A stretch of DNA of 64,000 nt from positions 3,658,001 through 3,722,000 of the forward strand of contig CM073194.1 in assembly GCA_037042915.1 (NCBI GenBank). The letters run 5' to 3'. Both the position numbers and the translations under genes were made by a program. Below, piece by piece: positions 3,001 through 54,621 of the stretch. The notes under the pieces are model-generated. The model saw nothing but the letters and a program-made list of their open reading frames with translations. It was not told where the DNA came from and did not search any database. Within the stretch, counting starts at the first letter, position 1, and each line of letters begins with the position of its first letter. Origin of the DNA: Auricularia sp. M13. Taxonomy: Eukaryota; Basidiomycota; Agaricomycetes; Auriculariales; Auriculariaceae.

Positions 3001-4991
3001 CAACCGTTGGATTGCGGGCGTTTTGTTGTTCAACCCGAGAATAGTGCATGTTCCTGCGACGAAACACACGGGAGCGGACGGACTTTCACGAAGACCGGCA
3101 GCACCTGAAGACGAGGACGAGCCCGACGATGCAGACGAGTGGTTGGACAAGGCTTTGGGATTTGCGATAGAACTCGAAAACGCGCGAAGACCCGTCTTCG
3201 ATCACGTGTTTGAGAGCACTCCGCGACTCGCAAAGGCCTTGGGAATTCAGCTCAACGTGCCCCAGCGGCCACGTCATCAACAGGAAGTCTTCATTTTCGA
3301 CGATACGCGACGCTGCGTAGTGGTGCGAGGACGCAACCATCCAAAGTACCCCGCGGAGAGGAGTCAGACTCCGACAAAAACGCGCGAAAACGACGAAAAT
3401 GAAGATCCTGGCGACGAATCCGTCTCAGGCGATGAGGATGAACAAGAGCATCAAGAAGGACGTCCCGCAAGTCCCGAACGCGAAAAGGAGCAATCGCAAG
3501 AGCCAATGCAAGAGGCGAACGCGGAAACTCGAATTCGGGAAATAGCAACAGAACCCGAAGGAGAAGTCAAGATTCCTAGAGGCGCAAAAGGACGACGACG
3601 CGACAAAGAGCTACCGACCATCTTCAAGTTCCTACAGTCGGGCGACCGCGACCGAATATGCCGCGCGACAAGTTTCACGCATTGGTACGCAAGGCATCTC
3701 AGTATTTCGTACTTGGCGACGTACTCTACCGGCGAAGCGAAGACGGAAGGCACAAGGCAGTGGTATTCGACAACGACAAGCGACTAGAGAAGATGAAGCT
3801 CGCGCACGACGAACTTGGGCACAAGGGATACTTTCCGGTTCGCGCACACGTGCGAGAACGGTATTTCTGGCACGATATGGACACGGACATTCGCTGGTAT
3901 CTACGCACTTGTCATCAGTGCCAGATTCGCCAATTGGGGCACCAGCGGATTCCGCAAACGGTGCCATTCGTACCCGGCCTATTCTTCAAGTGTCACATTG
4001 ACGTGATGCTCATGTCGGTAATGTCCGAAGGCAAGAAGGCGTTGGTGCAGGGCAGATGCGCGACAGCCAGCTTCCCGGAATGGAGAGCTCTCGCGAAAGT
4101 GACTGGCGTCACTCTCGGGCGATTCATTTTCGAAGAGATACTTTGCCGCTGGGGAGTTCTCGCAGAAATCGCTACCGATAACGGCGCGGACGTCGTAAAG
4201 GCAGTCGATTATCTCAGTGAGAAACACGGGATCCGTCATATTCGCATATCGGCGTACAATTCGCGAGCAAATGGCATAGTCGAGCGCAAGCACTTTGATG
4301 TGCGCGAATCACTCATGAAGGCGTGTGGTACCGAACCACAGAAGTGGGCCTCTAAGGCACACTCAGTCTTCTGGGCGGAACGCGTGACGGTAAAGAAGCA
4401 CCTCGGAATGTCACCGTATCGAATGGTACATGGATGCGAGCCCGTGCTCCCTCTCGATTTCGAACAGGCGACCTGGCTTGTCCCGCCAATGCAACCCCCG
4501 ATGACAACGGAGGAGCTTATTGCAACACGGGCGCGTCAGCTGGAGAAACGAGACGAGGACATTGCTGCGATGAGGGAACGAGTGCGGCAGTTCCGCGCAA
4601 AGCGGCTGAGCGTATGCTCAAGAGCTATCACGGACTCAAAGCACCGGGCAACATTGCGCCAGGCACGCTCGTACTGGTCAAGAACTCGAGAATCGAACTA
4701 GAGCACAATCGGAAACCCAAGCCGAGATGGCTAGGGCCGTTTATTGTGCTCAGGAGACATTCGGGAGGATCGTACATTTGTGCGGAACTCGACTCTGCAG
4801 TAATTGTGGATCGAATTGCGGCAGCACGTGTACGCCTCTATCACGCTCGTGCAAATGTGCGTTACAACGTCAAGCAAATCGTGGAGAATACGCCGCAATA
4901 CGTTTGGGAGCGGGCGAACGCGCCGCAACCAGTCGACGACGAAGAAGATGAAACCGAGCTCGACGCCGACCCCGAGACCAACGACAATTAA
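1..4991 (+). mobile_element. Ty3/Gypsy LTR retrotransposon, 5'-truncated by the window edge, broken
   Basis: This is a fossil element of the Ty3/Gypsy family. Its parts in order are: aspartic protease (about 1-430, with the DTGST active-site motif), an extra short hydrophobic-then-basic segment (about 430-770), a linker, reverse transcriptase (about 1,500-2,350), RNase H (about 2,500-3,100), an acidic linker (3,100-3,600), and integrase with an HHCC-type zinc region and DDE core (about 3,700-4,600) followed by a GPY/F-like tail (about 4,640-4,860). Protease-RT-RNase H-integrase is the Ty3 order. Gag and the 5' LTR lie left of the window. A purine-rich stretch at about 5,177-5,196 could be the polypurine tract. 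The element is broken, with several breaks across the pol region. Recognisable domains suggest moderate age; no LTR pair is available for dating. Confidence 0.9.
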
Positions 4992-9846: not shown

Positions 9847-10605
9847 TCTTCCCTGGCTGTTCAGCGCGCATCGACCGCGCGCTTCACGGAGCGCGTCGAG
9901 GACCTCGCCAACAATCTTGACGACAGTAACCGCGTCCTGCGCGACATCCAGGAGCGCTGCGCTGCGATCGAGTCCGGGGGCGCACGCTACCACCGCGCCA
10001 CGCTTGCCGATTTCCGCGACACGTCGCCGCGCGTCGCGCGCCGTGCCGCCGAGGACCACCGCCGCCGCAGCCTCGACGACGACGACCGCCTCAGTGTCGC
10101 CGCTGACCAGTCGCGCCCCACCAAGCGCATGCGCACTAACAGCGGCGCAGCCGTCCCCACTGCGCACGCCGACAAGGACGGCTTCTATGAGCCCTTCGAC
10201 TTCGGCGAGGACGACTGTGTCACTGCGCGCATGGGCTGCGACCCCAGCAGTCACCGTCTCGCTTGGGGTCGCAAGGAAGTGCCCGCGGACGCCATCTCGC
10301 TCGTTCAGCGCTGGGCCCGCGCGATGGGCGGAGACGGCGGAGACCTCCCGATGCCAGTTACCGCTGCGTGCCCCGCTGGGCTGCAGGACGGCTTCCGCCT
10401 GCTCAAGTGGGCATCGCGCGACGCCTTCGTCGAGTTCTTCACACGCTGGACCCGTCGCAAGGACCCGATTCGCGAGGTCTCTGCTGCCGCCATTCCCGAC
10501 TTCGATACGCCGGAGGATGCTAGCGCGCTCGGCATCCTACCGCCCGCGAAGACACAGGGCTCCCGCGCCGGCGGCCGCGACCAGAGGCGCGGGAAGGGTT
10601 TTTGA
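9847..10605 (+). CDS. LINE ORF1-like protein (coiled coil, basic/acidic tracts)
   Basis: This open frame runs from a stop at 9,844 to TGA at 10,603-10,605. The first ATG in frame is at 10,129, so the true start is unclear; an acceptor-like CTTAG just upstream suggests a spliced or upstream start. The N-terminal part is heptad-like (RVEDLANNLDDSNRVLRDIQ) and could form a coiled coil. An Arg/Asp-rich stretch and an NLS-like PTKRMR follow. The C-terminal half is a compact mixed domain (about 10,200-10,520), and the protein ends in a basic tail. Its position directly before the endonuclease ORF fits LINE ORF1, which usually binds RNA. The frame ends on a slippery heptamer that overlaps ORF2. Confidence 0.6.
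   Translation, partial: SSLAVQRASTARFTERVEDLANNLDDSNRVLRDIQERCAAIESGGARYHRATLADFRDTSPRVARRAAEDHRRRSLDDDDRLSVAADQSRPTKRMRTNSGAAVPTAHADKDGFYEPFDFGEDDCVTARMGCDPSSHRLAWGRKEVPADAISLVQRWARAMGGDGGDLPMPVTAACPAGLQDGFRLLKWASRDAFVEFFTRWTRRKDPIREVSAAAIPDFDTPEDASALGILPPAKTQGSRAGGRDQRRGKGF
10596..10602 (+). promoter_or_regulatory. Candidate -1 ribosomal frameshift site GGGTTTT
   Basis: In the ORF1 frame the codons read AAG GGT TTT TGA, so G GGT TTT (10,596-10,602) is a canonical X XXY YYZ slippery heptamer placed exactly before the ORF1 stop. Slipping back one base at this point enters the open ORF2 frame at TTG (10,602). ORF2 has no ATG near its start, so frameshifting is the simplest way to translate it. 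I did not identify a downstream pseudoknot. Confidence 0.6.
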
Positions 10606-12128
10606 ATTCGACGAGAGCCTCCCAGCATAGTCGTCAGCCTGTTCGCCCCGGTCCTCGTAATCACACTGACCGTAGCCGTTCCTTAAATACAATTTCCCTC
10701 GATTGCGACGGAATTGTTATCAAGAGTGTGAACATTGACGGATCGCTGACTCTCAAGCTGGCCCTCTCGTCTGTCAAGTATCTTATAACATCTTCTCACA
10801 TCCTCCTGCTACAAGAAACTCACCTTCGACAAGGGCAGCACGCCCCGCTGCAAAAGCTGCTCCCCCACGGTTACAGGTTGATATCGGTGCCACGCCCGAC
10901 ACAGAAGAACATGAGGAACCCATGGGGCGGTGTTGCCGCTATTGTACATGAAGACTTAATGGTGCAATGGCGCTCGGACTTGTCTTCTACTGACATTCTC
11001 GTATTAGAGCTCCCGTCGTGCTTTATCATGTGTTACTACCTCTATCCGGCTAACACACGCATTGATCACACGCGCTGGGCACTGACCGACCCGGTGGAGA
11101 AATACCGCGAGACGATTGCAGGCTTACGACTCCTGGGAAAGCCAGTCTACTGTGTAGGGGACGCCAACGGTAGGACAAACTGCGCGACGGCCAGTCCTAC
11201 AGACCCACCCCGCATCTCCCAAGACATTGCAGATCGCAATGCACGCGGGAATACCCTGCTTGATATAGCGGCCGAAAGCAACATGTGCATATTGAACGGT
11301 GCTGTGGGCGTTGACGCTCTGGTTGGCGGTCTCTACACCTCATACCAACCAAACGGGTTTGCAGTCGTCGACTACGCGTTGCTATCGAGGGAATCACTTG
11401 CTCTCGTCTCACATTTCTCCGTTGAACCGCAGCTCACATTCTCGGACCATGCTGTCTTGCATGTCCGACTCAACCTGCCTATACAGCGTCAGACCGCTGT
11501 GCCACAGCGGCAGAGTGCTGTGGAGATGTTTTCGCTACTGGAGAGCGAACCTTATACGGAGGCTGATCGTCTACTACAGGATGTCATGGATTCGACAATG
11601 ACCTGGGAAATGGCGATGAATGACCTGTATGGGCCGCTGCGGACTGACGACACTCAGCCGGTGCAGGTATGGACCGCTTATAGCTGCAAACATCCTGGTC
11701 GGCCCTCAGCATCTGCGGGAGCTGGGTGCTTCTGGGGGCATGGGAATACAAGGAACGAATCCCTGCGCGTGCCAGGCGAGGTTCAGACCAGCAACCGCGC
11801 CGCCTTATTTGCTATCCTCGCCGCTCTTGACGCCGCGGACCCGCACCGCAAACTGGTTCTCTTCTCGTCCTCTCAGTATGCTATCCGTAGCATTGGAGAA
11901 TGGGCGCCTGCACGTCAAGAGCTTGGTTGGACGTGCACTAACGGTGATCTACTGCACAAAATCCACCTAGTCATACGTCGCCGATCGGCCGCTCTCCATC
12001 TGACGTTGATCTCAGAAAAGGACATTGGGAACGGTCATTTTATCGAAGCAATCAAGCTTGCCAAGTCTGGCAGAACACTGCCCCACAGTCAGGAAGATTA
12101 TTCGCTGCGCACTCAATCAGGTATATAA
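10602..12128 (+). CDS. LINE ORF2 fragment: AP-type endonuclease plus RNase H-like domain, no RT
   Basis: This is a 508-codon open frame. Residues about 40-290 form an endonuclease/exonuclease/phosphatase (EEP) domain of the LINE type: LLLQETH with the metal-binding Glu, YCVGDANGR, VVDYALLS, and the C-terminal SDHAVLHVRL with catalytic Asp-His. Residues about 345-490 have the shape of an RNase H domain (GAGCFWG, VPGEVQTSNRAALFAILAAL, LVLFSSSQYAI, then GNGHFIEAIKLAK). The expected catalytic carboxylates are replaced: TDGS-type is TAYS, the Glu position is Ala, and SDS-type is SSS. No reverse transcriptase lies between or after them before the stop. Either RT was lost, or this family places RNase H before RT and the 3' half is missing. 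The ORF is followed directly by a CCCAAGTCCC minisatellite. Confidence 0.8.
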   Translation: MNSTRASQHSRQPVRPGPRNHTDRSRSLNTISLDCDGIVIKSVNIDGSLTLKLALSSVKYLITSSHILLLQETHLRQGQHAPLQKLLPHGYRLISVPRPTQKNMRNPWGGVAAIVHEDLMVQWRSDLSSTDILVLELPSCFIMCYYLYPANTRIDHTRWALTDPVEKYRETIAGLRLLGKPVYCVGDANGRTNCATASPTDPPRISQDIADRNARGNTLLDIAAESNMCILNGAVGVDALVGGLYTSYQPNGFAVVDYALLSRESLALVSHFSVEPQLTFSDHAVLHVRLNLPIQRQTAVPQRQSAVEMFSLLESEPYTEADRLLQDVMDSTMTWEMAMNDLYGPLRTDDTQPVQVWTAYSCKHPGRPSASAGAGCFWGHGNTRNESLRVPGEVQTSNRAALFAILAALDAADPHRKLVLFSSSQYAIRSIGEWAPARQELGWTCTNGDLLHKIHLVIRRRSAALHLTLISEKDIGNGHFIEAIKLAKSGRTLPHSQEDYSLRTQSGI

Positions 12129-19657: not shown

Positions 19658-20688
19658 TTACTGTTCTGAGTCGTCTAGTGCGAAGGGCGGCGGAGGTCTT
19701 TTGCAGGGCAATGGCGCCATGCGCCCGCGGTGGTCGTAAAAGGTTTGCTGGTAGCAAACCCAGGCGCTGCGCTCGAGCTCTCGGAACTCGTCTGATTCCA
19801 GCGCGGGCGCGTCGTTGTCGGCGTCCCAGTGATCTTTCCAAGGCCCGAGCATTTCGCTCGCCCGAGGCCAGTACCTCATGAGCTCTGCGAAGGACCGCAA
19901 CGCGAGCAAGCGCTCACGCGCATTGCTCGAGCACAGCCAAGTTTCGCGAGTCGGCTTGACCATCTCGATCCCGCCTGCCCAGCAGTCCTTCACCAACCCA
20001 TAGTACTCGAGGGTCGACACGGCCTGGAGCTCGGGGATGTTGCTGTACCAGCGACGCATGCTCATGGCGAGGTCGAGCATGTCGTAGCGGAACTCAAGCT
20101 CGGCGAGCTCCCAGACGATGTAGCTCACCCAGTTGAGCGGTAGCGATTCTTCTGAATCCCACGGCGGCGGCGGCAACTCGTGGCCGTCGAAGGTGCACTT
20201 GTCCTTCAACTTTTCGAGCAGTGGCCTCAGCGAGAGCAGCCGCTCGGCTTTCTCGACATCGACAGCGTCCTGCCCTGCCGTTATCGTCGCGTGAGCGACG
20301 TCGAGTCCGAGACGCTTGACTATCGGCCGCGACTCCCTGTTGGGCATGACGCCCTTGATGATTTCTCGCCATTGCTTCGTTTCGAATCCCTCGTCTTCGT
20401 CGATCGGGTCGCTGGCGATCTTCGCGAGATAGTATGGCCGGATTTGAAGCCACCTGAACAGGCCCTGGAAGACGTTGCGCTTGCTGGTCTTCTGCTGGAC
20501 GCTGCGGTTCGACCACGCGTTCGCGAAATAGTCCAGCGTGGGCATCTTGTGAATCGTCTTCGCGCCCTTGTGAAGCTGCGGCACAGGATTCGTGCAGCCC
20601 GCGAGTCGGGCTTCGCGCTGCCTGCTCTTGTCGACATACTGTGCCGCCTCTGTCCCAACCTGGAGCGTGCTCGGCCACCAGTCCGGGA
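19658..20688 (-). pseudogene. 3' part of an unknown Agaricomycete gene, separated by a transposon
   Basis: This is the C-terminal portion (about 340 codons) of a leftward gene whose 5' part lies at 27,163-31,436. The 6,474-bp palindromic element sits in the coding exon. Codons before it end ...QYDLPD (27,163-27,170) and codons after it begin with the duplicated 8 bp and continue DWWPSTLQVG in the same frame. The protein is a globular, Trp- and Leu-rich domain (for example WVSYIVWELAELEFRYDML) of a type I recall as multi-copy hypothetical proteins in Agaricomycetes; no function is known to me. The frame runs open from the insertion to the stop at 19,658. Confidence 0.75.
20681..20688. repeat. 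8-bp target site duplication, left copy
   Basis: GTCCGGGA at 20,681-20,688 is repeated exactly at 27,163-27,170, on the other side of the palindromic element. This is a perfect direct duplication expected from transposition. Confidence 0.95.
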
Positions 20689-22580
20689 CACCTCAGGTAG
20701 CTGCAACCGGGTGGCGTTAACCCTATTTTACCCCCCCGGAAAATAGGGTAGCGCCAGGCCCGCGCCCGCGCCCGCGCCTGTTGCGGGTGGGTCGGTGGGA
20801 CTGCAGGTGGTGGTGCGGGTTTCTTTGCGGCTGCCTGTATGCTAGTGCGGTTCGCTCTGCGGGTCCTGGAATGCTGCTGCGGGTTGCTCTGCGGGTGTGT
20901 GAATGCTGCTGCGGTCCGCGCTGCAGGTGTGCAGGTGCTGGTGCGGGCTGCATTGCGGGTGCGCTGGTGGTGCTGCGGTTGGCATTGCGGTCCGTGCTGC
21001 GGGTGCGCAGGTGCTGCTGCGGTCCGCATTGCAGGCCCACGGATGCTGCCACGGGTTGGCCTGCGGGTGTGCGGGTGCTGCCGCGGTTTGCAATGCGGTC
21101 CGCGCGGCGGGTGCGACGGTGCTGGTGCGGTTCCCATTGCGGTCCGCGCTGCGGGTGCGCGTGCGCAGGTGCTGCTGCGGGTCGCATTGCGGGTGCGCTG
21201 GTGGCGCTGCGGATTGCATTGCGGTCCGCTCTACAGGTGCACAGGTACCCCCGCAGGTACTGGTGCGCATTTCATTGCGGGTGCGCTGGTGACGCTGCGG
21301 GTGGCATTGCGGTCCACGCTGCGGGTGCGCTGCCGTCCGGCACATTCCGGTACTGCCCGGAATGGTGCCGCCGCCTCCGCCACCACCGGAAACGGCCGGA
21401 AATCGCCGACTGACGTCGCCGCCGCCGCCGCTGCGGTCGGAAATCGCCGGAACCGTCGCCACCGCCGCCACCGGTCGTCACCGGCGCTTATTTATGAAAA
21501 AAAAACTTTTTTACCCCAAAACACAAAATGTTCCAATTGATGTCCTTCATGTTATTATACATATAAAAGTCTTGCTAACTATAATACACAGGAATTGAAT
21601 TCTGAATGGATTAAAGCTAAATGCAGCTGCATTCACTTCTGCAGCAACCGCACCTGCAGCCGCACCTGCAATCCGCGCCTGCGCTTGCGCCTGCAGCACA
21701 TGCGGTCGCACCTGCAGGGATATCTCAAAAGAGAACAGACTTGAGACCTTTGTGACGAATTACTAAGCATAGAGCAAAGTGTGCATTAACAGAGTGACCC
21801 AGAATCTTCCAGTTGGCCAAGTTTCAAAAAGCCCGGACCCTTGTAGCATGCTCTAACTTGCTCCATGTGCTGGATGTAGCCGCAGCCGCAGCCGCAACCG
21901 CACCCGCGCCCGTGCCTGCACCCGCACCCGCAGCTGCGACTTGCAATCCGCCCGGTTACCGCACACAGGCATCCAATTGTAAGCTTCAGATACACCACAG
22001 ATCAATGAGGAATGACCATTGGAGACATGTGCCAAGTTTTCAGCGTTTCCGGAGCTTTGTGGAATATTCTGCTGCACTCTGTGCTGTTGGTGGAAGAATA
22101 CTTCCGAACCTCGGACATCGGACTTTGCCGCAGTGCAAGCCGTCCAATGATTCACATGCTATACATCGCATCCGCAATACCATCAGCCTGTATACTGTCC
22201 AAGTAGAACTGCGGTGGCTGATGGTTACAAGCACCTGCACCGGCGCCTGCGCCTGCACCGCGCCTGCAACCGCGCCCCAACGGCACCTGCAAGCATTCAC
22301 TACTATGATTCTATTTTTCATCATCCATGGACCCGCACCCGCACCCGCACCCGCACCCACGCCCGCGCCTGCAACCGCGCCCGCGCCTGCAACCACACCT
22401 GTAAGCATTTACTACTAAGCATTTACTACTAAAATTTAGTTTTTCATCATCCATGAACCCGCACCAGTACCCGCACCCGCAACCGCAACCTCACCCGCAC
22501 CCGCACCCGCAATCACATCTGCAGACGCAAACACAGCTGTACACTCACAGAATCGCATACCCTACATGGGAACACCAGCA
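20689..22580 (+). repeat. Left outer inverted arm
   Basis: Inverted copy of 25,271-27,162. From the tip inward: terminal motif, a mini-hairpin (CCCTATTTT...AAAATAGGG at about 20,727-20,754), a GC minisatellite zone to about 21,480, an A-rich spacer, a unique zone (21,720-22,230), and a second CACCCGCAC minisatellite to about 22,550. Confidence 0.93.
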
Positions 22581-25270
22581 GTGCAGTGGAACACACCTTG
22601 TGAGCCGCCAGGCTCAACGGTTAGTTACAAATCACAAATTTGAGAAATCACTGGAGAATCTACATTAGAACTCAAACACAAGCTGCCCTGTAAGCAAAAG
22701 CGACACAGGCACAAGTCTCAAAATCAGACAATGAACATCACAATTTACGATTAAATGCGAAGCATGTACATCAGAATAATTAAAGTCAACCCAGTTGCAA
22801 TTACAGGCCGTAGTGAAATGCGTAGTGAAATGCGGCTCAATCCGCATTAGAAATTGCAAGTGCAATGGATTACAAACAGCCTTACACACGGCGGTTAAAT
22901 CCGGCTTGAACCGCATTAGAAGTTGCAAGATTAGCGCATTAGACCAGACATCACTAATGCTCATTATAACACAAGTGTAATAGCTTTGAGACAGCATTAC
23001 AACTCACGCCTGAAGTGCATTAGCACTTGCACTCAAAGCAACATCACAAATGCGCATTAGTACAAAAATGTAATGGATGAGAGACATCATTACAAATTGC
23101 ACCTGAATCGCATTGGCAGTTGCATTGGAACTGACCTAGTGACGTGCATTAGCTCACAGATGTAATGGATTAGAAATGGGATTACAACTTCCTCAGTAAT
23201 CGCATTAGAAGACAAGTGTAATTAGATTACAACCGTCATTAGAACTCGCAGTGTACTGCGCATTAGGCCAGAAATGTAGTACATGCCATATGTGAGAAAC
23301 ACTCAGGCGTGGTCATGGATGATTCCATGCTCTTATGTAGCTGATCTCAGACTGTGAGCAAGTTTTGGTGCCTTGGGATGCAGTGGGGGGTAAGGTTTGT
23401 TTGCCTCAACTAAGGGAAATGGGTAGAACACTACCCCATGAAGCCATGCTTCAACCATTAAGCTTCAATGGTGAAAGTTGCTTGTATTGGACCTATTTAG
23501 CTTATCCCACTCAAGAATGGTTAATAGGGTGTACTGGCGAGGCTCGGTGCAAATGCCCCTTTTTGATGGGGAAAGAACATTGCACCCAGAGAGACCCCTC
23601 AACCCGTATCTTTCGCAAACCTGCACGTACAATCTGGGGTATGAATAAAGACTTGAGGCGCTTGGTGCCTTGACGAATGTCTCGCAACACTTTCTCAGTG
23701 CAACTACTTGCATTTTCGCCCCCATGAGCTCACAGACTTCGCTCCTCGCCCTCTATTCTCAGTCTAACGCTTTCAGGGTAGTGTATAGTGGTCACAAAAA
23801 ACGCTCAGGAAGTTTGAAGCTGAACGGAGCATGGGTGGTTGAGATATGACCTGCGCATGTCTGGACACTGAGTTGCAGCCAGTTTCACCAAGAACTGCAC
23901 ATGCAACCTACCCCACCTTTTGGAAACATGCCTCTCTCACCCAAGAAGATGCTCAGAGTTTCATATAAAATGGATCGGAGCACTTGTGGATGTGGGAGAT
24001 GCATGTTACCGAGAGGGGGGTAGGTTCATGTGCAATTCTTGGTGAAACTGGCTGCAACTCAGTGTCCAGACATGAACAGGTCATATCTCAACCACCCATG
24101 CTCCGTCCCACTTCAAACTTCCTGAGCCTTTTGTGTGACCACTATACACTACCCTGAAAGTGTTAGACTGAGAATAGAGGGCGAGGAGCGAAGTCTGTGA
24201 GCTCATGGGGGCGAAAATGCGAGCAGTTGCACTGAGAAAGGATTAACTCATATAGTGCAAGGCACAGCACAGCACAGTACTCGCATTATGTATCATATAG
24301 TGTATGCGAGAGTTCAAGAGAGTTGGGCGACAGTGTATCTCTGGGTGCAATGTCCTTTCTCCATCAAAAATGCGCATTTGCACCCAGCCCCCCCACCTCA
24401 CTGGTTTAACATAACCCAAGCTGGACAGGCTAGAGAGGCATAATACGAGTAATTTTCATCATTGAAGCTTCATGGTATATGCAGTTATTGAAGGGGAATG
24501 GCTGATCCTCCTCTCTCAGTTGAGGCAAGCAAAACTCACTTCCCCCAGCATCTGGAATCATGAACACTCGTCAGGAGGATGGGATTGATATAATGAACAC
24601 ATGGCAGGATGCAGAAGCCAAACCATGAGTTCCACATGTATCTCATGTATTACATTTTCGGCCAAATGCGCAATACACCGCGAGTTCTAATGGCATTTCT
24701 AATCAGTTACACTTACTACTTCTAATGCGATTACGCCACCAATCCTAATCCATTACATTTGCTGCTAATCGGCATCACTGAGTGTTCCTAATGTATTTTA
24801 CTAATCCAATCTCGGTGCGACTTCTAAAGCTAGCTCTGTTCAATTACTCCGGCGACTGTACACATTAGTGATGTTGGTACTAATGGCGACTTTGCGTATT
24901 AGTGATGTTTGTTCTAATACGACTACTAATGTGATTTGGATGCGAGGTCTAATGTCTTCTCTGATCCATTATAGTGATGTCCTAATGTGCAGTAGTGATG
25001 CAGCTTCTAATCGGACTGCCGTTGTGGTTAAGGCGCAAGTTCTAATGGTGTCACTGGTTATTGAACTTGTGTTCTAATGCATCTTACTCCTAATGCAGTA
25101 CTTGTAAGTTCTATTTCGGTTTAAGCCGGAATTGACCGCAGCTTGTAATGCTCTTTCTGGCGCATCTAACTTGTGTTTCCTGACACATTTGTGAGCCGTG
25201 GTTCACTGCGACTTCGAATGTTGTTCCAATGAATTATCTTTTGGAATGCCGATTCACTTTATTATGCGCT
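22581..25270. repeat. Diverged inner palindrome of the foldback element
   Basis: The inner arms match in inverted orientation at lower identity. A clear stretch is 23,690-23,935 against about 23,990-24,240, and flanking blocks such as 23,380-23,640 pair with 24,290-24,560. Outer parts (22,800-23,280 and 24,680-25,100) are arrays of degenerate units containing GCATTAG or CTAATGC and TGTAATGGATTA. No gene is supported. Confidence 0.85.
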
Positions 25271-27162
25271 CTGCTGATGTTCCCATGTAGGGTATGCGAT
25301 TCTGTGAGTGTACAGCTGTGTTTGCGTCTGCAGATGTGATTGCGGGTGCGGGTGCGGGTGAGGTTGCGGTTGCGGGTGCGGGTACTGGTGCGGGTTCATG
25401 GATGATGAAAAACTAAATTTTAGTAGTAAATGCTTAGTAGTAAATGCTTACAGGTGTGGTTGCAGGCGCGGGCGCGGTTGCAGGCGCGGGCGTGGGTGCG
25501 GGTGCGGGTGCGGGTGCGGGTCCATGGATGATGAAAAATAGAATCATAGTAGTGAATGCTTGCAGGTGCCGTTGCGGGCGCGGTTGCAGGCGCGGGTGCA
25601 GGCGCAGGCGCCGGTGCGGGTGCTTGTAACCATCAGCCACCGCAGTTCTACTTGGACAGTATACAGGCTGATGGTATTGCGGATGCGATGTATAGCATGT
25701 GAATCATTGGACGGCTTGCACTGCGGCAAAGTCCGATGTCCGAGGTTCGGAAGTATTCTTCCACCAACAGCACAGAGTGCAGCAGAATATTCCACAAAGC
25801 TCCGGAAACGCTGAAAACTTGGCACATGTCTCCAATGGTCATTCCTCATTGATCTGTGGTGTATCTGAAGCTTACAATTGGATGCCTGTGTGCGGTAACC
25901 GGGCGGATTGCAAGTCGCAGCTGCGGGTGCGGGTGCAGGCACGGGCGCGGGTGCGGTTGCGGCTGCGGCTGCGGCTACATCCAGCACATGGAGCAAGTTA
26001 GAGCATGCTACAAGGGTCCGGGCTTTTTGAAACTTGGCCAACTGGAAGATTCTGGGTCACTCTGTTAATGCACACTTTGCTCTATGCTTAGTAATTCGTC
26101 ACAAAGGTCTCAAGTCTGTTCTCTTTTGAGATATCCCTGCAGGTGCGACCGCATGTGCTGCAGGCGCAAGCGCAGGCGCGGTTGCAGGTGCGGCTGCAGG
26201 TGCGGTTGCTGCAGAAGTGAATGCAGCTGCATTTAGCTTTAATCCATTCAGAATTCAATTCCTGTGTATTATAGTTAGCAAGACTTTTATATGTATAATA
26301 ACATGAAGGACATCAATTGGAACATTTTGTGTTTTGGGGTAAAAAAGTTTTTTTTTCATAAATAAGCGCCGGTGACGACCGGTGGCGGCGGTGGCGACGG
26401 TTCCGGCGATTTCCGACCGCAGCGGCGGCGGCGGCGACGTCAGTCGGCGATTTCCGGCCGTTTCCGGTGGTGGCGGAGGCGGCGGCACCATTCCGGGCAG
26501 TACCGAATGTGCCGGACGGCAGCGCACCGCAGCGTGGACCGCAATGCCACCCGCAGCGTCACCAGCGCACCCGCAATGAAATGCGCACCAGTACCTGCGG
26601 GGTACCTGTGCACCTGTAGAGCGGACCGCAATGCAATCCGCAGCGCCACCAGCGCACCCGCAATGCGACCGCAGCAGCAGCACCGCGCGACGCACCCGCA
26701 GCGCGGACCGCAATGGGAACCGCACCAGCACCGTCGCACCCGCCGCGCGGACCGCATTGCAAACCGCGGCAGCACCCGCACACCCGCAGGCCAACCCGTG
26801 GCAGCATCCGTGGGCCTGCAATGCGGACCGCAGCAGCACCTGCGCACCCGCAGCACGGACCGCAATGCCAACCGCAGCACCACCAGCGCACCCGCAATGC
26901 AGCCCGCACCAGCACCTGCACACCTGCAGCGCGGACCGCAGCAGCATTCACACACCCGCAGAGCAACCCGCAGCAGCATTCCAGGACCCGCAGAGCGAAC
27001 CGCACTAGCATACAGGCAGCCGCAAAGAAACCCGCACCACCACCTGCAGTCCCACCGACCCACCCGCAACAGGCGCGGGCGCGGGCGCGGGCCTGGCGCT
27101 ACCCTATTTTCCGGGGGGGTAAAATAGGGTTAACGCCACCCGGTTGCAGCTACCTGAGGTGG
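25271..27162 (-). repeat. Right outer inverted arm
   Basis: Reverse-complement partner of 20,689-22,580. Small differences from the left arm are visible around 26,505-26,535 and 26,660-26,690, mostly in G/C runs. The terminal mini-hairpin is at about 27,097-27,124. Confidence 0.93.
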
Positions 27163-27170
27163 TCCGGGAG
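27163..27170. repeat. 8-bp target site duplication, right copy
   Basis: GTCCGGGA, identical to 20,681-20,688. It lies within a coding exon of the leftward gene. Confidence 0.95.
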
Positions 27171-28071
27171 ATCATACTGCGCCTCCCACCGCGTGGTCAT
27201 GCGAATCAAGAGTCCCTTGAGCTGCGCGCCCTCGGGCATCGATTTGAGGGTCTTGTGCAGCATCGTGTTCCGCTGCGCATTTCGCTTTTGGCGCAGGAGC
27301 GTCCGCCGCGGTAGGAGGATCTTCTCTTACGGTTAGCATGAATCCCAAAGTATTTCTCCATTTTGCATACCTTTCCGTTTTTGCAGCAAGCTGCCCAACC
27401 TCATCACACCGCCCTCCACCACCGCCGGTTGCGAGCTGTCCAACCTCATCACACCGCTGTCCGACCCTGCTGGCTGGTCCGCTCCTGCTCTCACTATATG
27501 CGGGTGCGCCGTCTCGTCCTCCTCGTAGTCGGGCAGGTCGGCGCCGTCGTCGAACGCGGTGCTGTACATCCGCTGCTGTACTCGCGGGACTTCCGCTGGC
27601 TGGGAGATCGCCTGTTGAGATATCGGCGTTGTCGACGTAGTCGCGCCCCTCAAGTCTGGCGTCTCGTCCTCGGCCACAGTCGCAGGCGAATGATTTTCCG
27701 CGGTCGCCGTCTGTGTCACGCCTTCTTGCGCACTCGCGAGCGGCGCAATTACCGCCTCGACCGTCTCCGAGGCGCCTTGCTGCTGCTGGGTGGAAACATT
27801 ACTTGAGTGGGGCTTGAGCAACCAGCGCGGTGGTCGCCTTTGCTTTTGCGACTGAGCCAGCTTCCTCATGGTCTGCTCGCGCAGCAAGGCTTCATAATCG
27901 GAATCGTCCTCCTCCGGTTCAAGACGCGCGTCGTCCGCCTGCACCCAGCCATCATCCGATGCGCCATCCGCGTCGACGTGACGCGACGTGGATGATGTAG
28001 AGCGCGCCGGAGAGCTCGCGCCAGTGTTCTTGGGTGGCGATCGGGTCGCCGGTTCGTGGACGACCTCTCTG

Positions 28072-28412
28072 CCAACCTGAGCAGCACCTGCAGGCTGCCA
28101 CGCTTCATGCTGGAACCCGATGTCCGACTTCGTCGACGTCAAACGCAGACGGGCGCCATCGTCGACGGCTTGACCTTGCTCGCCTTGAAACCTGCGCATT
28201 GTTTAACTCCAGTGATAATTTTCTTTGTATAATCGCGCGTACCCTGCCTCAGCACCACCTGGACGCTGCCGTGCTTCATGCTGGAACGCGACGTCCGACT
28301 CGTCGATGTCAAACGCAGACGGGGCGCCATTGTCGCCGGCTTGACCTTCCTCGCCTTGAAACCTGTGTATTGTCAACTCCAGTGATAATTTTCCTTGCAT
28401 AATCTCACGTAC
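28072..28412 (-). repeat. Tandem duplication of an exon together with its intron
   Basis: Two adjacent units of about 170 bp each contain a 50-51-nt intron (GTACGTGAG.. and GTACGCGCG.., both ending ..RCRCAG) plus a 120-nt exon. The first exon is 28,243-28,362. The second copy starts at 28,191 and runs into a longer exon. Being 120 nt, the extra exon keeps the reading frame. In the second copy two compensating one-base indels shift about ten codons (APSAFDIDE becomes ARLRLTSTK) before the frame is restored. Confidence 0.85.
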
Positions 28413-30499
28413 CCTGCCTGTTGTTCCTGATGCACAGCTGCCATCGCCGCCTCGTGCTTCTCCTTCTCCTCCTGCTGCTTCCGCGTCGCTGCTTGCGACG
28501 CGGAATCGTGCCCTTTGCACGGCGCATCCTCGAAGACTATCTCGTCCAACTCGGGGACCAAGCCATATGACAGAACCGGCACCCCGTCTTGACGATGTAA
28601 CCGAGTTCCGTGCTTGGTCGAATTGTACTTTTCGACCCACCACACGGGTACGCCGTACCGGGCGAACGTTACAGCGTCATCCTGGTTTTCGACGAAGACG
28701 CCCGGGAATCCCTCCGATTGAAGTATCGGGTCATCCGGGCGACTTCGCCCCTCGTCGGCTCAAGTTGACGATGCTTGTCATACATGCTGAGGTCGCGCAT
28801 CCTGTAGAGGGCCTTGAGGTATTCGATGTAGCCTCTAACCGAGGATACCGCGCTGAAAGGCGCCGAGCGCGCAGCGCAGGACCCACTCCGTCCCAGACTC
28901 GGACATCACGTACGCCATGGCGGACGCGGTATGTTCCCTGTCGATGCTGCCGGAGTATTTCTCCCACTGCCTCCAGAAGGGTTCATGTGACCCGGCCATA
29001 TCCCTCGCCTCGTCCCAGGCGAGGTGCGTGCGCGTGGCTTCCTGACGAACCGCTGCCCGTACACTGTCTCGAAACCTCCAAAGTCCCTCTGCCGCCGCAA
29101 CCGTGTGCCTTTCCTTGTCGAACCTCATCCAGGCGATGTCTTGATCTGGACTTTCGGCCGTCTTGAAAAACCAAGTGTCGTTTCGCTCGAACAGGTGTCT
29201 TTCGTCGCGCTTCCAGGGCCGCAGCATCGGGATGAAAGCCATATACGGCCTCATGCGCTCCGACGCACAGTGTTGCGGGAGCCACTGGCGCTCATGGATT
29301 CCATAGCGGGCGTCTGCCCGCAGTTTTTTCTCTGGGTCGGTCGGCGGCGGCGGCATAATCACGCGGTTGGAGTAGACGACCCATGTCGGGTCGTCTATGG
29401 ACGGCCAGTAGTACTGGTATGGCGTCCATGTCGATTTCGCGTCCTCCGTCTCCCCCCAGGCTAACGCCAGTTCTGAGGGCGGCGAAGGTGCGCGCGGTAT
29501 CGCTGGCGGTTTCCTCGCCTCCCAGAGCTCCCACGCCGCGCCGACGAGATGTTGCAATGTGGGATCTCTCTGCACGGCGTCGATAGTCGGGATCATGCCC
29601 TGGTATTTCTTCGGGACAATCAGCTGAAACGAGGGATCGCCAAAGACCCGGCCGCCCTCCATGTATTGCCGCCAAGTCATCGTCGTGCCCACGACGAAGC
29701 CCTTCGTGCCGTGGTACTTGTTGATGCTGTGAAATACACCGTCAGATCTGTTTGACAGGTACCGTTGAGCGGCTCACTCATAGCCCGCCAGGTCTTCAAT
29801 GGTCAAGTCTTCTGGCCGTTTGACGGGCTCCCTACGTACATTCAGGACATTAGAATATACATTTTCAGCAGTGCTTACTCTTCCGTTCGCGACTCGTCCT
29901 CGCTGGCTCGTCCAAGCCGCTCCCTGCGCTGATGTCAGCTGTGTTAATTGGCGAGTTGACAGACACGCACCGCTCATCGTTCCCGTGCCTCAGCTCGGGC
30001 GCCGTGCGAGCTCCGTCGCCGCTGCCGCCCTCGCTGCCACAGCATGAGTCTCGGTCATCGTGTCAGCGTCATTGATGTTCCTTACCCTCGAGACCGAGCG
30101 GCGCCTTCCCGTCGCTCCATCTCCACGCGCTCCCGCTCCTCCCTCTGTCGCTCGAGCTTCTCTCTCTCGCTCTGCTCCCTCCTCGTCCTCCACGCCTCCA
30201 TTTCCGCTTGGTTCATCCGCCGTTTCTTCCACTTTGGCATCGCGCTTCGCGGAATTCAGTCTGTATCGGGCAGTGAGCATCAATGAGGATGACTGGTCTC
30301 ATTCGAGAGCCAGCTGTACTCACATCCGTAGTATGAGCTGATCTGGGCTGCGACGCCGCCGATGCGACTTGAGCTTTGTCTAACAAATGTCTGCGCTTGG
30401 TACTCACGGTGACACACCTCGTCTGCGGCAGGCGGCGGGTGTTTTGGTTCGCTGTGAAATATAATCAGCTTCGAAGAGGATGGCCTTGAGCGCAGACAA

Positions 30500-31345
30500 G
30501 TATGGCCTCTGCATGGACGCGCGACTTGCGGTCGCCCATCGCGAGTGAAGCACTCGCCGCAGAGCAGGCCGTACACCCGATCGCCAACGTCTGGCCTGGG
30601 CCCCGAGCTTCGCTCTGCGGCGAGGTACATCTCGTCTACGACCGAGGCATGCATGATGACAGTGAACAAAAATCTACTCACGATTCTCGTGGGGGTGCTC
30701 GATGTCGACAGGGACGGCAGTGCTCTGTCGAATTTCATTAGCATCGAAGACCATGACATTGAGCCCAGGCGAGTTTTGCGTCTGCATCGACGCGCGACTT
30801 GCGATCTCCCACCGCGAGTAGGGCACTCGCCGCAGAGCAGACCGTACACCCGATCGCCAACGTCTGGCCTGGGCCCCGAGCTTCGCTCTGCGGCGAGGTA
30901 CATCTTGTCTACGACCGAGGCATGCAGGACGACAGTGAACAACAATCTACTCACGTTTCTCGTGGGCGTGCTCGATGTCGACAGGGACGGCAGTGCTCTG
31001 CAAAATTTTATTAGCTTCGATGACAATGGTGTCGAGCCCAAGCGAGAATAGTGACTGCGTCGACGCGCGACTTGCTGCAGAGCCTGCCGCGTGACCTGAT
31101 CGCCTAGGTAGGGCGTGGGTCTCGCAACCTGCACTGCAGCAAGTCTCGAGTGTCATGCAGCCACAGAAACTGAGTGGCGGATAATATCTCCAGCAGCGAG
31201 TGAAGCGCTCGCCGCAGAGCAGGCCGTACACCCGATCGCCAACGTCTGGCCTGGGCCCCAAGCCTTGCTCTACGGCGAGCGACATCTCGTGTGCCACCCA
31301 GGCAAGCAGAATGACAGCGAAGAAAATCGTACTCACAGTTCGCGT
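30500..31345 (-). repeat. Tandem exon/intron repeats, about 272-bp period
   Basis: Three copies of a unit share CCGATCGCCAACGTCTGG (near 30,580, 30,852 and 31,229) and an intron-like segment that on the minus strand starts GTGAGTA and ends ..GAG before ATGTACCTCG or ATGTCGCTCG. Spacing of the first two copies is 272 bp; the third is separated by an extra 110 bp. The intron-like 51-nt segment also reads open, so spliced and unspliced transcripts would both keep a frame. Confidence 0.8.
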
Positions 31346-38653: not shown

Positions 38654-39967
38654 AGTGTATGCAGCGGTTGTGCAGTAGATACCCAATTGTTGCCAATGCC
38701 AATGTTCATTTTCGGAACGTGCTTGAGACTGGTTATCGGGATAAGTGCCAACGTCAGTCGAATATGGAAAAGAACGCCAATCAGCATGATTGTGCAGTGT
38801 GATGGCAGCTTAAACTACTGACCGAAGCTCGGGCGGTTGCGTATTCAAGGGGAACTGATATCAGGCTGGACTTGTCGCTGGTGTCTGTACAGGACGTCAG
38901 CGAAGTGCCAGGGCTGCAGTTTGAAGGGCATATACCCGGTAGCAGGGCAGCTACACTTTGGACGAAAATTATTTCATATTGGCGCTTGCAGATCTCGAGA
39001 TTCCAGATTGCAGATTTCTGACGGGATAATTTTTGAAACCGCTCCAGTGGTCGCAGCAGCAGGGATGATACAGGTACATATCAGATTTCATCATGCCGGA
39101 AATGCACATGGTCAGGGCGGAGTCGAGTCCATGGTTGAGGGGACGGGAACAGCTATCTCTAGGCGAAATGTAGGTCCATGTGGGAAAGCTAGAATTGAGG
39201 AGAACGGTCTGGAGAGGAGGGGAACATGAACTCGCGAAGGGAGTGACGTCCGGCGGCACAAGGAACCATGTGAGGATCGATCGCGCTGGCAGACGCCCAT
39301 GGTGGAGTCGCGACTAGAAGATGCTCAGTAATCTGGCAACCGCTGATGCGCGGGCACCGGGATTGCGTCTCCAACGAGAGCTGGCGACTCGGCCGAGCAT
39401 GGCGGTGCCTTGCTCGGCTGGAACGATGGCGCAGCATGATTCATATGTAAAGCGTGATGCTCGCGTCAGCGAACCACACCGAATCGTCTCGGGTGGTCAC
39501 CGACGCGAGCGGGGATGGGGGCGCGCGATGGACAAGTCGATTCGGACTCCGCACGGTAAGGTCCGCATCTTCTCCATCTGCGTACACTACACCGCGCTCA
39601 CGCGCGCACCCCACCCCCCCCCTCCCCGCGCACCGTCTCGACGAGCCAACCCTAGACGTTAGGTGTTGTGCCTGTTGAGTCGGCTGCGTTCGAAAGTCCT
39701 GGCGTTGTGGCCTGGTCAGTACGACTGTGCACACGTGAAGTTGCGCCCGTCTGGGACAATGTGCGTGTCACGCCCACAAAAAATTCACGATAATTCTCAT
39801 GTCTGACCCGACGATTTTTGTGGTTGTTTCGGCAGCCGCTGGGACGGACGGAGGCGGTGTTCACCAACCAGAAGCGTGATTAGAGGAATGTACGCTGCAA
39901 GTTAAGTCGCTTGTTTCACCTCGAGAATCGGCATGATTCTGAATTTATTCGTTGAGGTGGGCAGCCT
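38654..39967. other. Gene-poor stretch containing the right inverted repeat
   Basis: About 1.3 kb without a supported gene. It includes a C-run (39,610-39,625) and the inverted repeat at 39,649-39,666. The last 300 bp, with TTGTGGTTGTTTCGGCAG, probably hold the promoter of the transposase gene. Confidence 0.45.
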
Positions 39968-42900
39968 ATGTCACCAGTGTTCTTGGAGCCGCCTTTGCGG
40001 CGTGGACGGGGACCGGCTCGCAAGACTGCCCAATCCCCAGACGCTGCTAGTCAGCCCACCTTACCCTCCCCCCCGGTCTCAGGTTCGAAATCGACCAGTA
40101 CATACCCATTGTCATCATCTGTCTGTAAAAGTCCCAGTCGTCGCAAACCGAAAGCTTTTAACAGTACCATAAAAGACTTGTATCCGGTTTATCGTCATGC
40201 CGTCGAACAGCGCAGTCTGGGATTTTTCCAGATAGACCCCAGGACGTGGGTCGCACAACTGTGTGACGGGGACAATCTCGAGGCAATAGATGGCGTGAAC
40301 GGATGGACAGTAATCGAAGTCGAGGTGACTGCGTCACACAAGTCAACCTACACCTGCAGTCCGTGCCCGGATTTCGCAGAGCAAGGGCGCTGCGTGCATA
40401 CCCATCTACTCGAGGACGTGAACAAATTTCCGTTGCTGCCCTTCTCGCAGTACGGTAAGTCTGAAGAGCTCAGAGTCAAATTCGCGTATGCTAACGATCA
40501 CTCGAGACAACCCCGAATCCGTCCTTTTTCAAAGGAACAAGGCGGCTAAAGATCCGCACGCGCTTTCAATGTTTCTATGCAGCTCGCGCACGAGGGGCAA
40601 AGCAGTCGTATCGCACTATGGACGACAGGCCGATGGGGGAGAGTGGGTGTGTCGCAAACACGGCCGTGCCTGCGAGCACATCTCCGCGGCACGGAGAAAC
40701 GCTGTTTTCCTCCGCATTATCGCAGGCGAAGCGGCAGCGGACGAGCACGATTGCGAAACCGAGGGATGTCACGGCGACAGAGAGACTATAGGGAAGGACG
40801 GACAAGGTAAGGACGGTAGCAGGATTCATTGTTTAGGAAGTTGCTAAAGAAGTCGCAGCTGAGACGGCGAGCGAATCCGAAATTAACCGCAGCGTGTCGT
40901 ACAAGCCAGTCGCCCCTCCGGAGTGGGCGCGTCTGGCACGGGACGATCTCACGTCATTCCCGTTGGTCGATCCCATACCTACGCGCTTTAGGATCGACAC
41001 CGAGGCACGCTGTGCATGTGGCGGTGCTGCGTTGGCGCTCGCCCCGGTTCGTGACATCAAATGCATCCTCTACACCTCCTGTCGCGCGTACGAAGCCAGG
41101 ATCGAGGTGCGGCGCTGCTCGTCGTGCCGCAAGAACTGCGGGCCTGATCTCCGAGACCTGGGGATCTTCAACTTCAACAACGCACACCTCTACAGTCACG
41201 AGCTACTCAACTCGTTCACGAGCAGCATGTCAAGCTATGAGGCGCCGTTCCACGCGTTTCACAAGCACACGGACAATACCTACATTGAGCACCGCAGCCC
41301 GGAGCCGTTCGTGTCCGACACGACGCTTCGCAAAGTCTGGTTCTCATTGCTCAGAATCCAGCAACTGGTGAACAGTTTCGCGTGCTCGAAATGCGGCGAA
41401 AGTCCTCAAGTTGTTATTTTCGACGGAGTCACTGCGGGATTTGACGCAAAACAAAAAACGGCGTCTCTGAGGCCACCCACGACGACTGGAGACACAGTCA
41501 GGACCAACGTCGTCCCGCCGTCAGAGAAGTTGACGCTCGTGACGGGTGCTCTGCGAACGCGCGCGCAGAATGCAGTGCGATGGAGGAAGAAGGTCGGCGC
41601 GGGGAACAAGAGTCCCTTGCCGGCTCAAGGACGCGGCGGCCAGGAAGCGGTCTTCGACAGTATGATAGTCGATGAGGATGTGGACCAGACCGCGGCACAG
41701 CGGCGCGCGCAAAGGCGTCGCGAAGATCTCGACGAGAAGGACGACACAATGAAGAAGAGCCTCCCCGGAATCGTCAAAGAGCTGAAGAAAGTCAACACGG
41801 GGCTCGGCACGCTATTCGAGACGCATGTACGATCGACGTGGAGAGAAGCGACAGAGCCGCGAACGAAGTTATACCTCGAGCTGCTCGAACAGGTAACGCA
41901 GATGGTTGATATTCGGCTGAAAACATGCTGACGTCGCCGTAGCTGCTCGCATATGAGCCAGTGATTCAGTTCGCGCCGCGCGAGTCATGGGAATCTCTGG
42001 ATCTCGTCGGGAAATCTGGACACGAAAAATCCGCCGAAGCTCTGCTGCGTACAGTCCCCGCTTTCGGACGCGTTCTTCGAGGGGAAATTCAAGTTGACGG
42101 CGCGGTATCGGAACCCCTCAGAGACGTTGCACGGTTTGTCGTAGATCGCGCAACAAGGAGCCTGGCGAGTCTGTCGAGCAACGATCCGGAATCGGCGGCG
42201 ATTAAACCAACCGAGGAAGACTGGCGCGAGGTACGCGGTCGTGCGGAGTATAATTAAAGATAATGTCTCATCGGCACACAAAGACAGGAACGTTCTACGG
42301 GCGCCCACGCATTCGCGACCGACCCACGTACCCGCATCTCCCGACGGACAAGAAGACGGAACGCGCCACCGTCAGCGACGCCGGCGGCGCAGTGGGCTGC
42401 TCGAAGTACTACGAAGAGTACGTCAAGAAAGGCATAACCGGTGGTCTTATGGCCGTCTGGTGTACGCATAGTATATGCCTTGGCTTTCACGTCATCCCTC
42501 ATGGCGAGGGTCGCAACGACGTCTTCTCCGCGCTGTTCACGCACTGGAAGAAAGCGCCAAAATACGTGATATACGACTTCGCGTGCGCGCTCGCACCTTA
42601 CTGCATGCTGCGCGAGGCCGAGTTCTTCAAGGATACGATATTCCTCATCGACGAGTTTCACAAGGAGGGGCACTCACGGTGCTCACCGGCGTGCTTCATC
42701 AATAATTACAAGCACTTCAACTCGAACCTCAAAGAAATAAACACCAGCGCGGCGGAGTGCGGCAACTCAGGTCTGCGAAAAATACGGAAGACGCTATCGT
42801 ACTTGTCTCAAGGCCACGCTATTCTTTTCGGCTATGTATTCCTGGCGATCTGGAACAGGCGACGCGAACTGTCCGCTCTGAGGAAAGAAACGAAAAAGAT

Positions 42901-42979
42901 GCGGCGCGGGAGGAAGACGCGCGAGCAACTTGGCCTCGTCGTGCGCGACGAAGTGCAGCAGAAGAAGCGGCGCAGATGA
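39968..42979 (+). CDS. KDZ-type transposase with SWIM-like and CxC zinc motifs
   Basis: Six exons can be followed. Introns lie near 40,454-40,506, 40,806-40,837, 41,892-41,942 and 42,231-42,285, giving roughly 900 residues. The N-terminal part has a SWIM-like zinc motif (CSPCPDFAEQGRCVH) and a second Cys/His group (CRKHGRACEH). The middle carries CxC-type clusters (CACGG, RRCSSCRKNCG, FACSKCGES) as described for cysteine clusters associated with KDZ transposases. The C-terminal core has YDFACAL (Asp near 42,575), FHKEGHSRCSPACF, and AECGNSGL (Glu near 42,755), matching the YD-C, H-x2-H-x2-C and E-NS signatures of the Kyakuja-Dileera-Zisupton family. It ends in a Lys/Arg-rich tail. No clear disabling change was seen, so it may be intact. 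Terminal repeats of its own were not found. Confidence 0.72.
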
Positions 42980-43530
42980 TGAACTCGTACGCAACAGATG
43001 GAGTGGAAACGGAGGTATGGTCCTACTGGGAAGCTTGTTGTCGCGACTGACAACGAGCAGAACAACAAACGAAGAAAAGCGGAAGGGAGAATGAACGATT
43101 ACAACGCGGACGCGACAGATGTATTCGAGAAGGCGAAGACGGTAATACATTTTATTCCGCAACAAACATGTCGATGGAGAAAAAAGTACAAGACACCGAT
43201 GCGTTACAACCAGACCCGGCAAGGCCTGCGTTGCCTTTCTGCCGCGAGGCGACGTGATGATCGGCAACGCAAACGAAGCCAGAGTAAGGTCTGGTATGTC
43301 AGTTCATAGGGTCCGTACAAGGAGTTAACAACAAAACGAAGGTCGAGGCATTATACGCCGCTGTAAGTGAATGTCGCGGGACATGGGCATCAAGCAAGGC
43401 GAACTGAGAAGGAAGGACCCTCCAGCCGCGTGCGTGACGCAATGCGCGGTAGGAAGAAGGGCGCACAGCTGAGCGCCAGCGTTCATCGACAAATCGCTGA
43501 GAACGACAAGCAATGAAAGGCCGGACGACA
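42980..43530. other. Stretch between transposase and SMC1 fragment
   Basis: About 550 bp, with A-rich segments that could be transposase 3' UTR. There are no conserved frames. A donor/acceptor pair (GTATGG near 43,013, CGAGCAG near 43,060) might add a short extra exon to the transposase. Confidence 0.35.
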
Positions 43531-50271: not shown

Positions 50272-51549
50272 ATCGTGGGCCACAATATGGGCGAGAGGAG
50301 ACGAAAGCTGCACTCGGCGGGGTGGGCTGTAATCTACCGCGCCTAAACGGTGGTTCACGGGGTGGGTGGGTCGGTCCGGAGCATAGCACGTCTCGTTTCG
50401 TGCTCTGCCTCCGAAGCGGGGGAGTGTCTAAGTGGGCCCATATAACCCTGTACTTCCTTCCTTCCTTCCTTCCCGTCAGGCCGCGCTGCAGATCGCACCA
50501 ATACCTTCGGTATGTACGCTGCTACTGTTCCTTTTTTGTCCGTGTCTAATTCTGCTTAGTATCCCGTCGCTCTCCGTTGTCGCCCATTGGTCCATTCAGT
50601 CGGTACGTCTCGTTGGCAATATCTCGTCCACCGTCGCATTATTGATTTTCCCTAGGTGTACAGTACGCGATGAAAATTCTGCAATGCCATGCCGAGCATT
50701 GTCGTGGTAAGCCGTCGACTGGGTTCGCCGACCTGTACACGCTGCGCACACTGTGTATCATATGACGTCGCCCACGTTGGCGCTATCTTGCCTACTTGCT
50801 CTGCGTGAATATATTAGTTTCCTCATCCATTCGCTCCGTCGAGATCAACCGAAGCATTGCAACCCATGAGACCGCAAGAGCAGCTGCCGCTTCACGCCTG
50901 AGCTGAGCGCAATTTGAGGACCACTCAGTGCAGAAGCAAGAGTTATGGCGCCGTATAATGCAGGCATACGAAGGTGTGGTGCGAAAATGACCGCACCAGA
51001 GCGGTTGCTGACTGCTCCAAACAGGGGGGCATAGAACTTGGGCACGCCCCGCTCTGGTGCGTCGAGCGCGGTCATACGCGGAGCGACGTTTTCCTGATTT
51101 GAACCTGTGCTGTCTTAACTGAATTGAAGATACAATGACTAGTAGAAGCAATCGTGTCGTATATATTCACGAGTATGAAGTAGAGTTCTCAACCTTTAAG
51201 CAATGTTCGTCTTCAGCAGAGACGTTACCAGAGGTACTACCAGGTGGGAGTCTCGCTGGGTAGTCAGACATGTGCTCAAGTGCATATCGAATTCTTGTCG
51301 AAGTTCTTTCGTAGTAAAGGCGACCATGCTTTCGAAATATATGGCTATGTACTGGCCCCTTGAGAGGAACAATACAGTATTTGGCCTCCGTACCCCTTGC
51401 CCGTTGGGCGCTCGGAGGACGCGTCCGGTAGCAGCCGGTCCAGTTTTCCGCTTTGCCAGTGCTTTGGTAGATGCGCGTCGCGTCTCCATGACCGCCGCCG
51501 TCACATTCGCCGCCTGTGGTCGTATATCCCCGTCGTCCGCCAGCGTCGC
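50272..51549. other. LINE 3' flank and upstream region of the PPR gene
   Basis: About 1.28 kb with no supported gene. It includes CTTC microsatellite repeats (about 50,455-50,475) and low-complexity C/T-rich stretches. The right part probably contains the promoter of the PPR-type gene; a short frame at 51,203-51,832 on the minus strand is an antisense shadow. Confidence 0.5.
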
Positions 51550-54134: not shown

Positions 54135-54621
54135 CCGCGCACGGTATCTTTCATACTCTCGCAGGCCCACCGCACATGACGTGCAGGCCGTGCATTGCAG
54201 GCCGGGCAGTCGCCATCGCGGCGCGCGAGCTCGGCCGAGCTTCACATCCTGTCAGGGCCGCGCCAGTCGCCGTCACGTCCAATGCGCAGGTTGAGGCCAT
54301 CGTCGCTACAGTCTGGCGCCACATCCCGCCCGCGCGAACAGCACAAAATTTCCTGCACTCGCTGCACGCACTGTACCATACAACATTTAGAAGGGACGTA
54401 TCTTATGTATTACTTAACTTACGCTTGCTCTTTGCTATGATTTTATCAGGATGCACTCTTTCACGCAGAACCCTCGCCCACTCTAACTTTCTGCTAGGGT
54501 CATCGACTCAAGCGCACGACATTCACAAGTAAGCTCTATACATCGTGACCGATGACTCGGCACAAGCTGCAGGCAGGTTGCAAGTCTAGGTCTATTGCTC
54601 TTGCGGGCCTACAGTAGAGGA
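54135..54621. other. Intergenic stretch between convergent genes
   Basis: About 490 bp between two genes that end toward each other. The left part includes the 3' UTR of the PPR gene. No gene or repeat is supported. Confidence 0.5.

Follow-up and report, generated by a model that had tools for sequence, protein, structure and literature searches.

A probable non-autonomous foldback-type DNA transposon of 6.5 kb, palindromic over nearly its whole length, in the basidiomycete Auricularia sp. M13

Foldback elements are known in animals and plants (PMC4079207). The element described here, from a fungus, is of the same kind as two of them, the two-TIR copies of Galileo and Tetris. By description, the two-TIR and two-recombinant-TIR copies of Galileo, a Drosophila element of the P superfamily, consist like ours of long repetitive inverted arms and carry no transposase. 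Galileo arms within a copy are 98–100% alike and have been lengthened by recruiting internal sequence (PMC3573991), and their internal repeats contain further transposase binding sites (PMC3688188). The longest pair given for Galileo measures 1,260 and 1,241 bp (95.2% alike), shorter than the 1.89 kb of our element, whose arms reach 3.2 kb when their diverged part is counted; Galileo duplicates 7 bp of target, against 8 bp here (PMC3573991). Tetris of Drosophila virilis is likewise described as a foldback element that apparently codes for nothing; its duplications are of 8–10 bp, and its arms, up to 1,735 bp long, combine an outer and an inner domain with tandem repeats. It departs from our element in its ~220-bp repeats, in a middle domain that varies in composition and size, and in its animal host (PMC4079207).

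Tm1, a Mutator/Foldback element of root-knot nematodes in which non-autonomous copies occur alongside transposase-bearing ones, also has composite inverted ends that consist for the most part of short tandem motifs. Unlike our element, it makes mostly 9-bp duplications, its TIR pairs are 93.15% alike on average, and the example on a BAC clone is only 1080 bp long, against 6473 bp here (PMC3169594). In Cryptococcus, also a basidiomycete, the elements KDZ1–KDZ3 come with duplications of 8 bp (KDZ1) or 4–8 bp (KDZ2 and KDZ3), but they are about 9–11 kb long, encode their own transposase and have TIRs of only 139–241 bp (PMC12810828). Beside the two-TIR copies of Galileo and beside Tetris, our element is distinguished by its longer arms and by a palindrome spanning nearly the whole of it: it is an unusually large member of a known structural class, and no new kind of system. 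No title among the literature matches listed names a fungal foldback element, which does not in itself establish absence from print.

The window, 64,000 nucleotides of contig CM073194.1, contains the element at positions 20689–27161 (6473 bp), with ends read directly and recovered by a scan for duplications flanking inverted termini. A direct repeat of exactly 8 bp, GTCCGGGA, abuts both ends without a mismatch (left copy 20681..20688, right copy 27162..27169), confirming the perfect target duplication that an earlier note on this DNA had described. The palindromic element outlined there is also borne out, with the exception of its right end, 27162, which lay one base too far; as the exact right end is 27161, the symmetry centre shifts from 23925.5 to 23925.0. 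The termini read CACCTCAGG..., and the outermost bases are CA..TG.

The scan covered the window for 8-bp direct repeats enclosing 12-bp inverted ends with at most two mismatches and 300–15000 bp between them, words with fewer than three different letters being dropped. It returned 12 pairs: the element itself, ten self-palindromic words within the element's own palindrome, and a single pair outside it (49518–60941, with two mismatches). Aligned half to half without the outermost 8 bp, the element is identical at 2827 of 3422 columns. None of nine overlapping control pieces of 6473 bp, drawn from the stretch between 30000 and 60473, matched itself in inverted orientation at E 1e-3.

The palindrome is layered. 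In a self-BLAST, 20689–22581 matches 27161–25271 in inverted orientation with 99.26% identity over 1896 columns, in agreement with the near-identical inverted outer arms of 1.89 kb previously noted; the inner 1.54 kb (23196–24734) matches itself inverted with 75.9% identity over 1584 columns. The left outer arm (20689..22581, + strand) begins CACCTCAGGTAGCTGCAACC, and the right one (25271..27161, − strand) carries the same motif arrays mirrored. Aligned up to 22588/25266, the two share 1887 identical columns and differ by three substitutions and 16 gap columns, the gaps being short and the overall identity ~99%; one or two of the substitutions, together with several gap columns, sit at the inner edge of the arms, where the similarity gives out.

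Immediately inward of 22581/25271, identity drops abruptly: about 170–250 bp of the left half and as much as 70 bp of the right half cannot be aligned convincingly. The middle arms follow (left 22640..23290, + strand; right 24640..25210, − strand), ~70% identical where alignable, their two blocks reaching 68.8% (279 columns) and 71.4% (399 columns) with gaps excluded; about 110 bp of the right middle arm have no counterpart on the left. Over the innermost ~226 bp (left 23700..23925, + strand; right 24003..24230, − strand) identity climbs back to 93.8% in 224 aligned columns, and a central loop of about 77 bp (23926..24002) is unpaired. The inner palindrome had been called diverged, which holds for the middle arms and fails for this innermost part. 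Very long inverted arms form most of the element, its unpaired parts being the loop, the two unalignable zones and the 110 bp found on the right.

With middle arms ~70% alike set between outer arms at ~99% and a core at 93.8%, the palindrome seems, from these alignments, to be old and to have been rejuvenated in one stretch, or perhaps in two. Arm-to-arm conversion would be the simplest account of these layers, though the outer arms may instead be a later addition to the palindrome. A stronger form of the latter idea, which we consider unlikely, is that the layers have different origins, a younger element with long TIRs, or two inverted 1.89-kb repeats, having come to surround an older and separate palindromic element. 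The abrupt change of identity at 22581/25271 and the stretches without convincing alignment just inside it are what such a composite would leave behind. Against it, the midpoints of the inner palindromic matches lie only some 40–90 bp off the axis defined by the outer arms, what the duplication scan picked up inside the element was self-palindromic words only, and by eye the core has no flanking duplication of its own.

Outer arms that differ by three substitutions, and otherwise by short gaps resembling consensus errors in one of two identical copies, also raise the question of an assembly or sequencing chimera, in which only one arm is real and the other is its spurious inverted duplicate. 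We regard this as highly improbable. The same 8-bp word stands directly at both ends beside different flanks, and the middle arms differ by ~30%; as a read folding back on itself would yield neither, the worry is reduced but not removed. Single-base errors inside a real palindrome are possible.

The arms are themselves made of internal repeats, as tandem units and as oriented motif arrays. In the left outer arm, irregular tandem units of 32–108 bp fill 20800..21340 (+ strand), where TGCGG occurs 27 times (500 shuffles: mean 2.6, maximum 8). Further in, at 21640..22530 (+ strand), an array of 22 CCGCA (shuffles: mean 1.8, maximum 7) runs in the opposite orientation. The left middle arm has 13 copies of ATTAG (shuffles: mean 0.85, maximum 5) and the right one 16 of CTAAT (mean 0.83, maximum 4). 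Counted per 250-bp bin, every array has its mirror on the opposite side. The 10- to 19-fold excess over shuffle means measures repetitiveness and is no functional test, since the 500 shuffles retain nothing beyond base composition and the choice of motifs followed inspection. The binding sites within Galileo repeats offer a parallel to these arrays, and only that. Outside the element, to its right, the window contains two tandem duplications, at 28076–28419 and 30467–31075, whose units are 171 and 273 bp long and show 87% matches.

We found no recognisable gene in the parts of the element scanned, in line with its earlier description as gene-free. When the inner part (22588–25265) and the left outer arm were translated in six frames, no Pfam match exceeded a curated cut-off; the left arm stands here for its near-identical mirror, the right one. 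A RIP_P131-like match in the inner part did not reach its cut-off of 27 bits (15.9 bits, E 0.016), and the best match of the left outer arm was low-complexity (E 0.24). Rfam families gave no match up to E 0.1 in 20000–28000. Open frames of 229–262 aa lie within the arms and three more, of 378, 238 and 344 aa, cross an element end; in both sets the arm portions track the repeats.

A frame in the core, 23649–23847, is open for 66 codons from stop to stop on the left and for 53 codons in the mirrored arm. The substitutions between the core arms, 14 in total, fall 9, 3 and 2 by codon phase; the other two aligned blocks (35, 35, 44 and 30, 31, 26) show no clear phase. Judged from the sequence, the frame and its skew may hint that the core is not purely non-coding. 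We do not count it as a gene, because the substitutions are only 14 and the frame belongs to no family that we found.

What argues for transposition is that a perfect 8-bp duplication sits precisely where the palindrome ends, in the one copy observed. The 20-base end, allowing up to three mismatches, occurs in the window at the element's two ends only (in 100 shuffles, never), and exact searches returned no match in viral contigs and none in bacterial and archaeal contigs. Mobility is therefore argued from a single copy; the zeros in these contig collections, being viral, bacterial and archaeal, tell little about the host. Compared as DNA with the rest of the window, the element has an 18-mer as its best match (E 0.017), and none of its 130 frames of at least 30 aa found anything there better than E 0.018 among the matches listed. 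The flanks joined without the element give a frame of 395 aa, 53 codons longer than the neighbouring open frame as it stands, which might suggest a gene interrupted by the insertion. Since 37% of 3000 random joins extend a frame as far or further, no interruption is shown, and the open frame at this reconstructed empty site lends mobility no weight.

Altogether, a palindrome with sharp ends, the 8-bp repeat abutting them, the motif arrays and the lack of a recognisable gene in the parts scanned support best the reading advanced in the earlier note, a non-autonomous foldback-type DNA transposon, here with very long repetitive inverted arms and almost nothing between them; we give it a probability of about 0.8. 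As no recognisable transposase lies within the element, it would have moved in trans. A transposase supplied by another element would recognise the ends, perhaps together with the motif arrays, excise the element and insert it with an 8-bp stagger. The outer 1.89 kb, and perhaps the core, would be re-homogenised by converting one arm from the other, either through intrastrand pairing or during repair after excision; the palindrome we infer to be old, the middle arms being only ~70% alike. A more speculative extension, which we hold to be quite improbable, would make the oriented arrays putative transposase binding sites: the element would then be selected as a super-substrate consisting solely of recognition DNA, its palindrome being renewed by arm-to-arm conversion at each move.

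Which transposase would have acted is a separate matter. The size of the duplication fits both hAT and Zisupton/KDZ, the two sources proposed earlier; it does not assign the element to them, since other superfamilies share it. P-type and some Mutator-like elements can also make 8-bp duplications. We tentatively name KDZ as a possible source, at somewhat less than even odds. The 8-bp duplication agrees with KDZ without being specific to it, and the lack of any KDZ transposase match passing the Pfam cut-off, in scans of the inner part and of the left outer arm, is what a non-autonomous member would show. KDZ1 of Cryptococcus, with its 8 bp, matches our element in this respect, as does Zisupton, for which 8-bp duplications are reported (PMC12810828, PMC12730594). 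The outermost CA..TG agrees with that reported for Kyakuja, where it is not unique, being present in other superfamilies; the two Kyakuja families described in Laccaria have 7-bp duplications and are reported without TIRs (PMC12730594).

The same window includes a likely KDZ transposase gene within 39956–43000, 14–15 kb from the element. It comprises a frame with a CxC4 domain (40837–41931, E 1.6e-37 in Pfam) and a KDZ frame (42254–42979) scoring just under the Pfam cut-off (E 5.9e-5, 23.3 bits against 26.6); an upstream frame, 39956–40549, with several cysteines and histidines has no Pfam match. CxC4 together with KDZ suggests a fungal and most likely basidiomycete host, a weak pointer given that Zisupton is also named in Pezizomycetes (PMC12730594). 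When the ends of a KDZ element were sought around this gene through 7- and 8-bp repeats with inverted ends, the results lay within the range of shuffled controls, and no candidate pair had convincing inverted ends. The first 150 bases of our element share only 9–12-mers with the KDZ region (best E 0.081) and no terminal sequence, a comparison made with the ends of the KDZ gene not fixed.

It is also possible, though short of probable, that an element of this same kind was served by a P-type, Mutator-like or hAT transposase, a reading that overlaps with the preferred one. The gene of an autonomous ancestor would then have been lost as the arms lengthened, as proposed for the two-recombinant-TIR copies of Galileo. 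In favour of this reading, of the 170 Galileo copies from D. mojavensis the two-TIR form accounts for 49 and the two-recombinant-TIR form for 38 (PMC3573991); Mutator was suggested for Tetris by its authors (PMC4079207); and hAT duplications are usually of 8 bp (PMC12730594).

Among 25 frames of the window scanned for Pfam (8 + 10 + 7, a subset of its frames), none matched a P-type, Mutator-like or hAT transposase at E 0.01, which speaks against a source of this type nearby. hAT duplications typically follow the pattern nTnnnnAn. Compared by eye with the typical hAT patterns, both the ends (CACCT...) and the duplication of this single insertion seem to depart from them, GTCCGGGA having T at position 2 and G at position 7. 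The same word agrees at six of eight bases with the P-element target consensus, a likeness noticed after the fact. Retrotransposon frames occur in the window as well. A retrotransposon at 1363–4701, spread over three overlapping frames, has integrase zinc-binding and RNase H domains, plus a reverse transcriptase match that falls short of its cut-off. Two further frames, perhaps pieces of non-LTR elements, encode an endonuclease/exonuclease domain with RNase H (10524–12128) and a reverse transcriptase domain (48127–50271).

Galileo copies have generated chromosomal inversions (PMC2775673). Should the arrays of our element indeed be recognition DNA maintained by selection, any transcripts of it would be giant hairpins and could feed RNA interference. 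Should its transposase prove to be KDZ, a foldback form would be added to the KDZ superfamily. An element of 6.5 kb, with parts of its arms ~99% and others ~70% alike, would be a good case for studying what keeps palindromes of such length in place and renews them.
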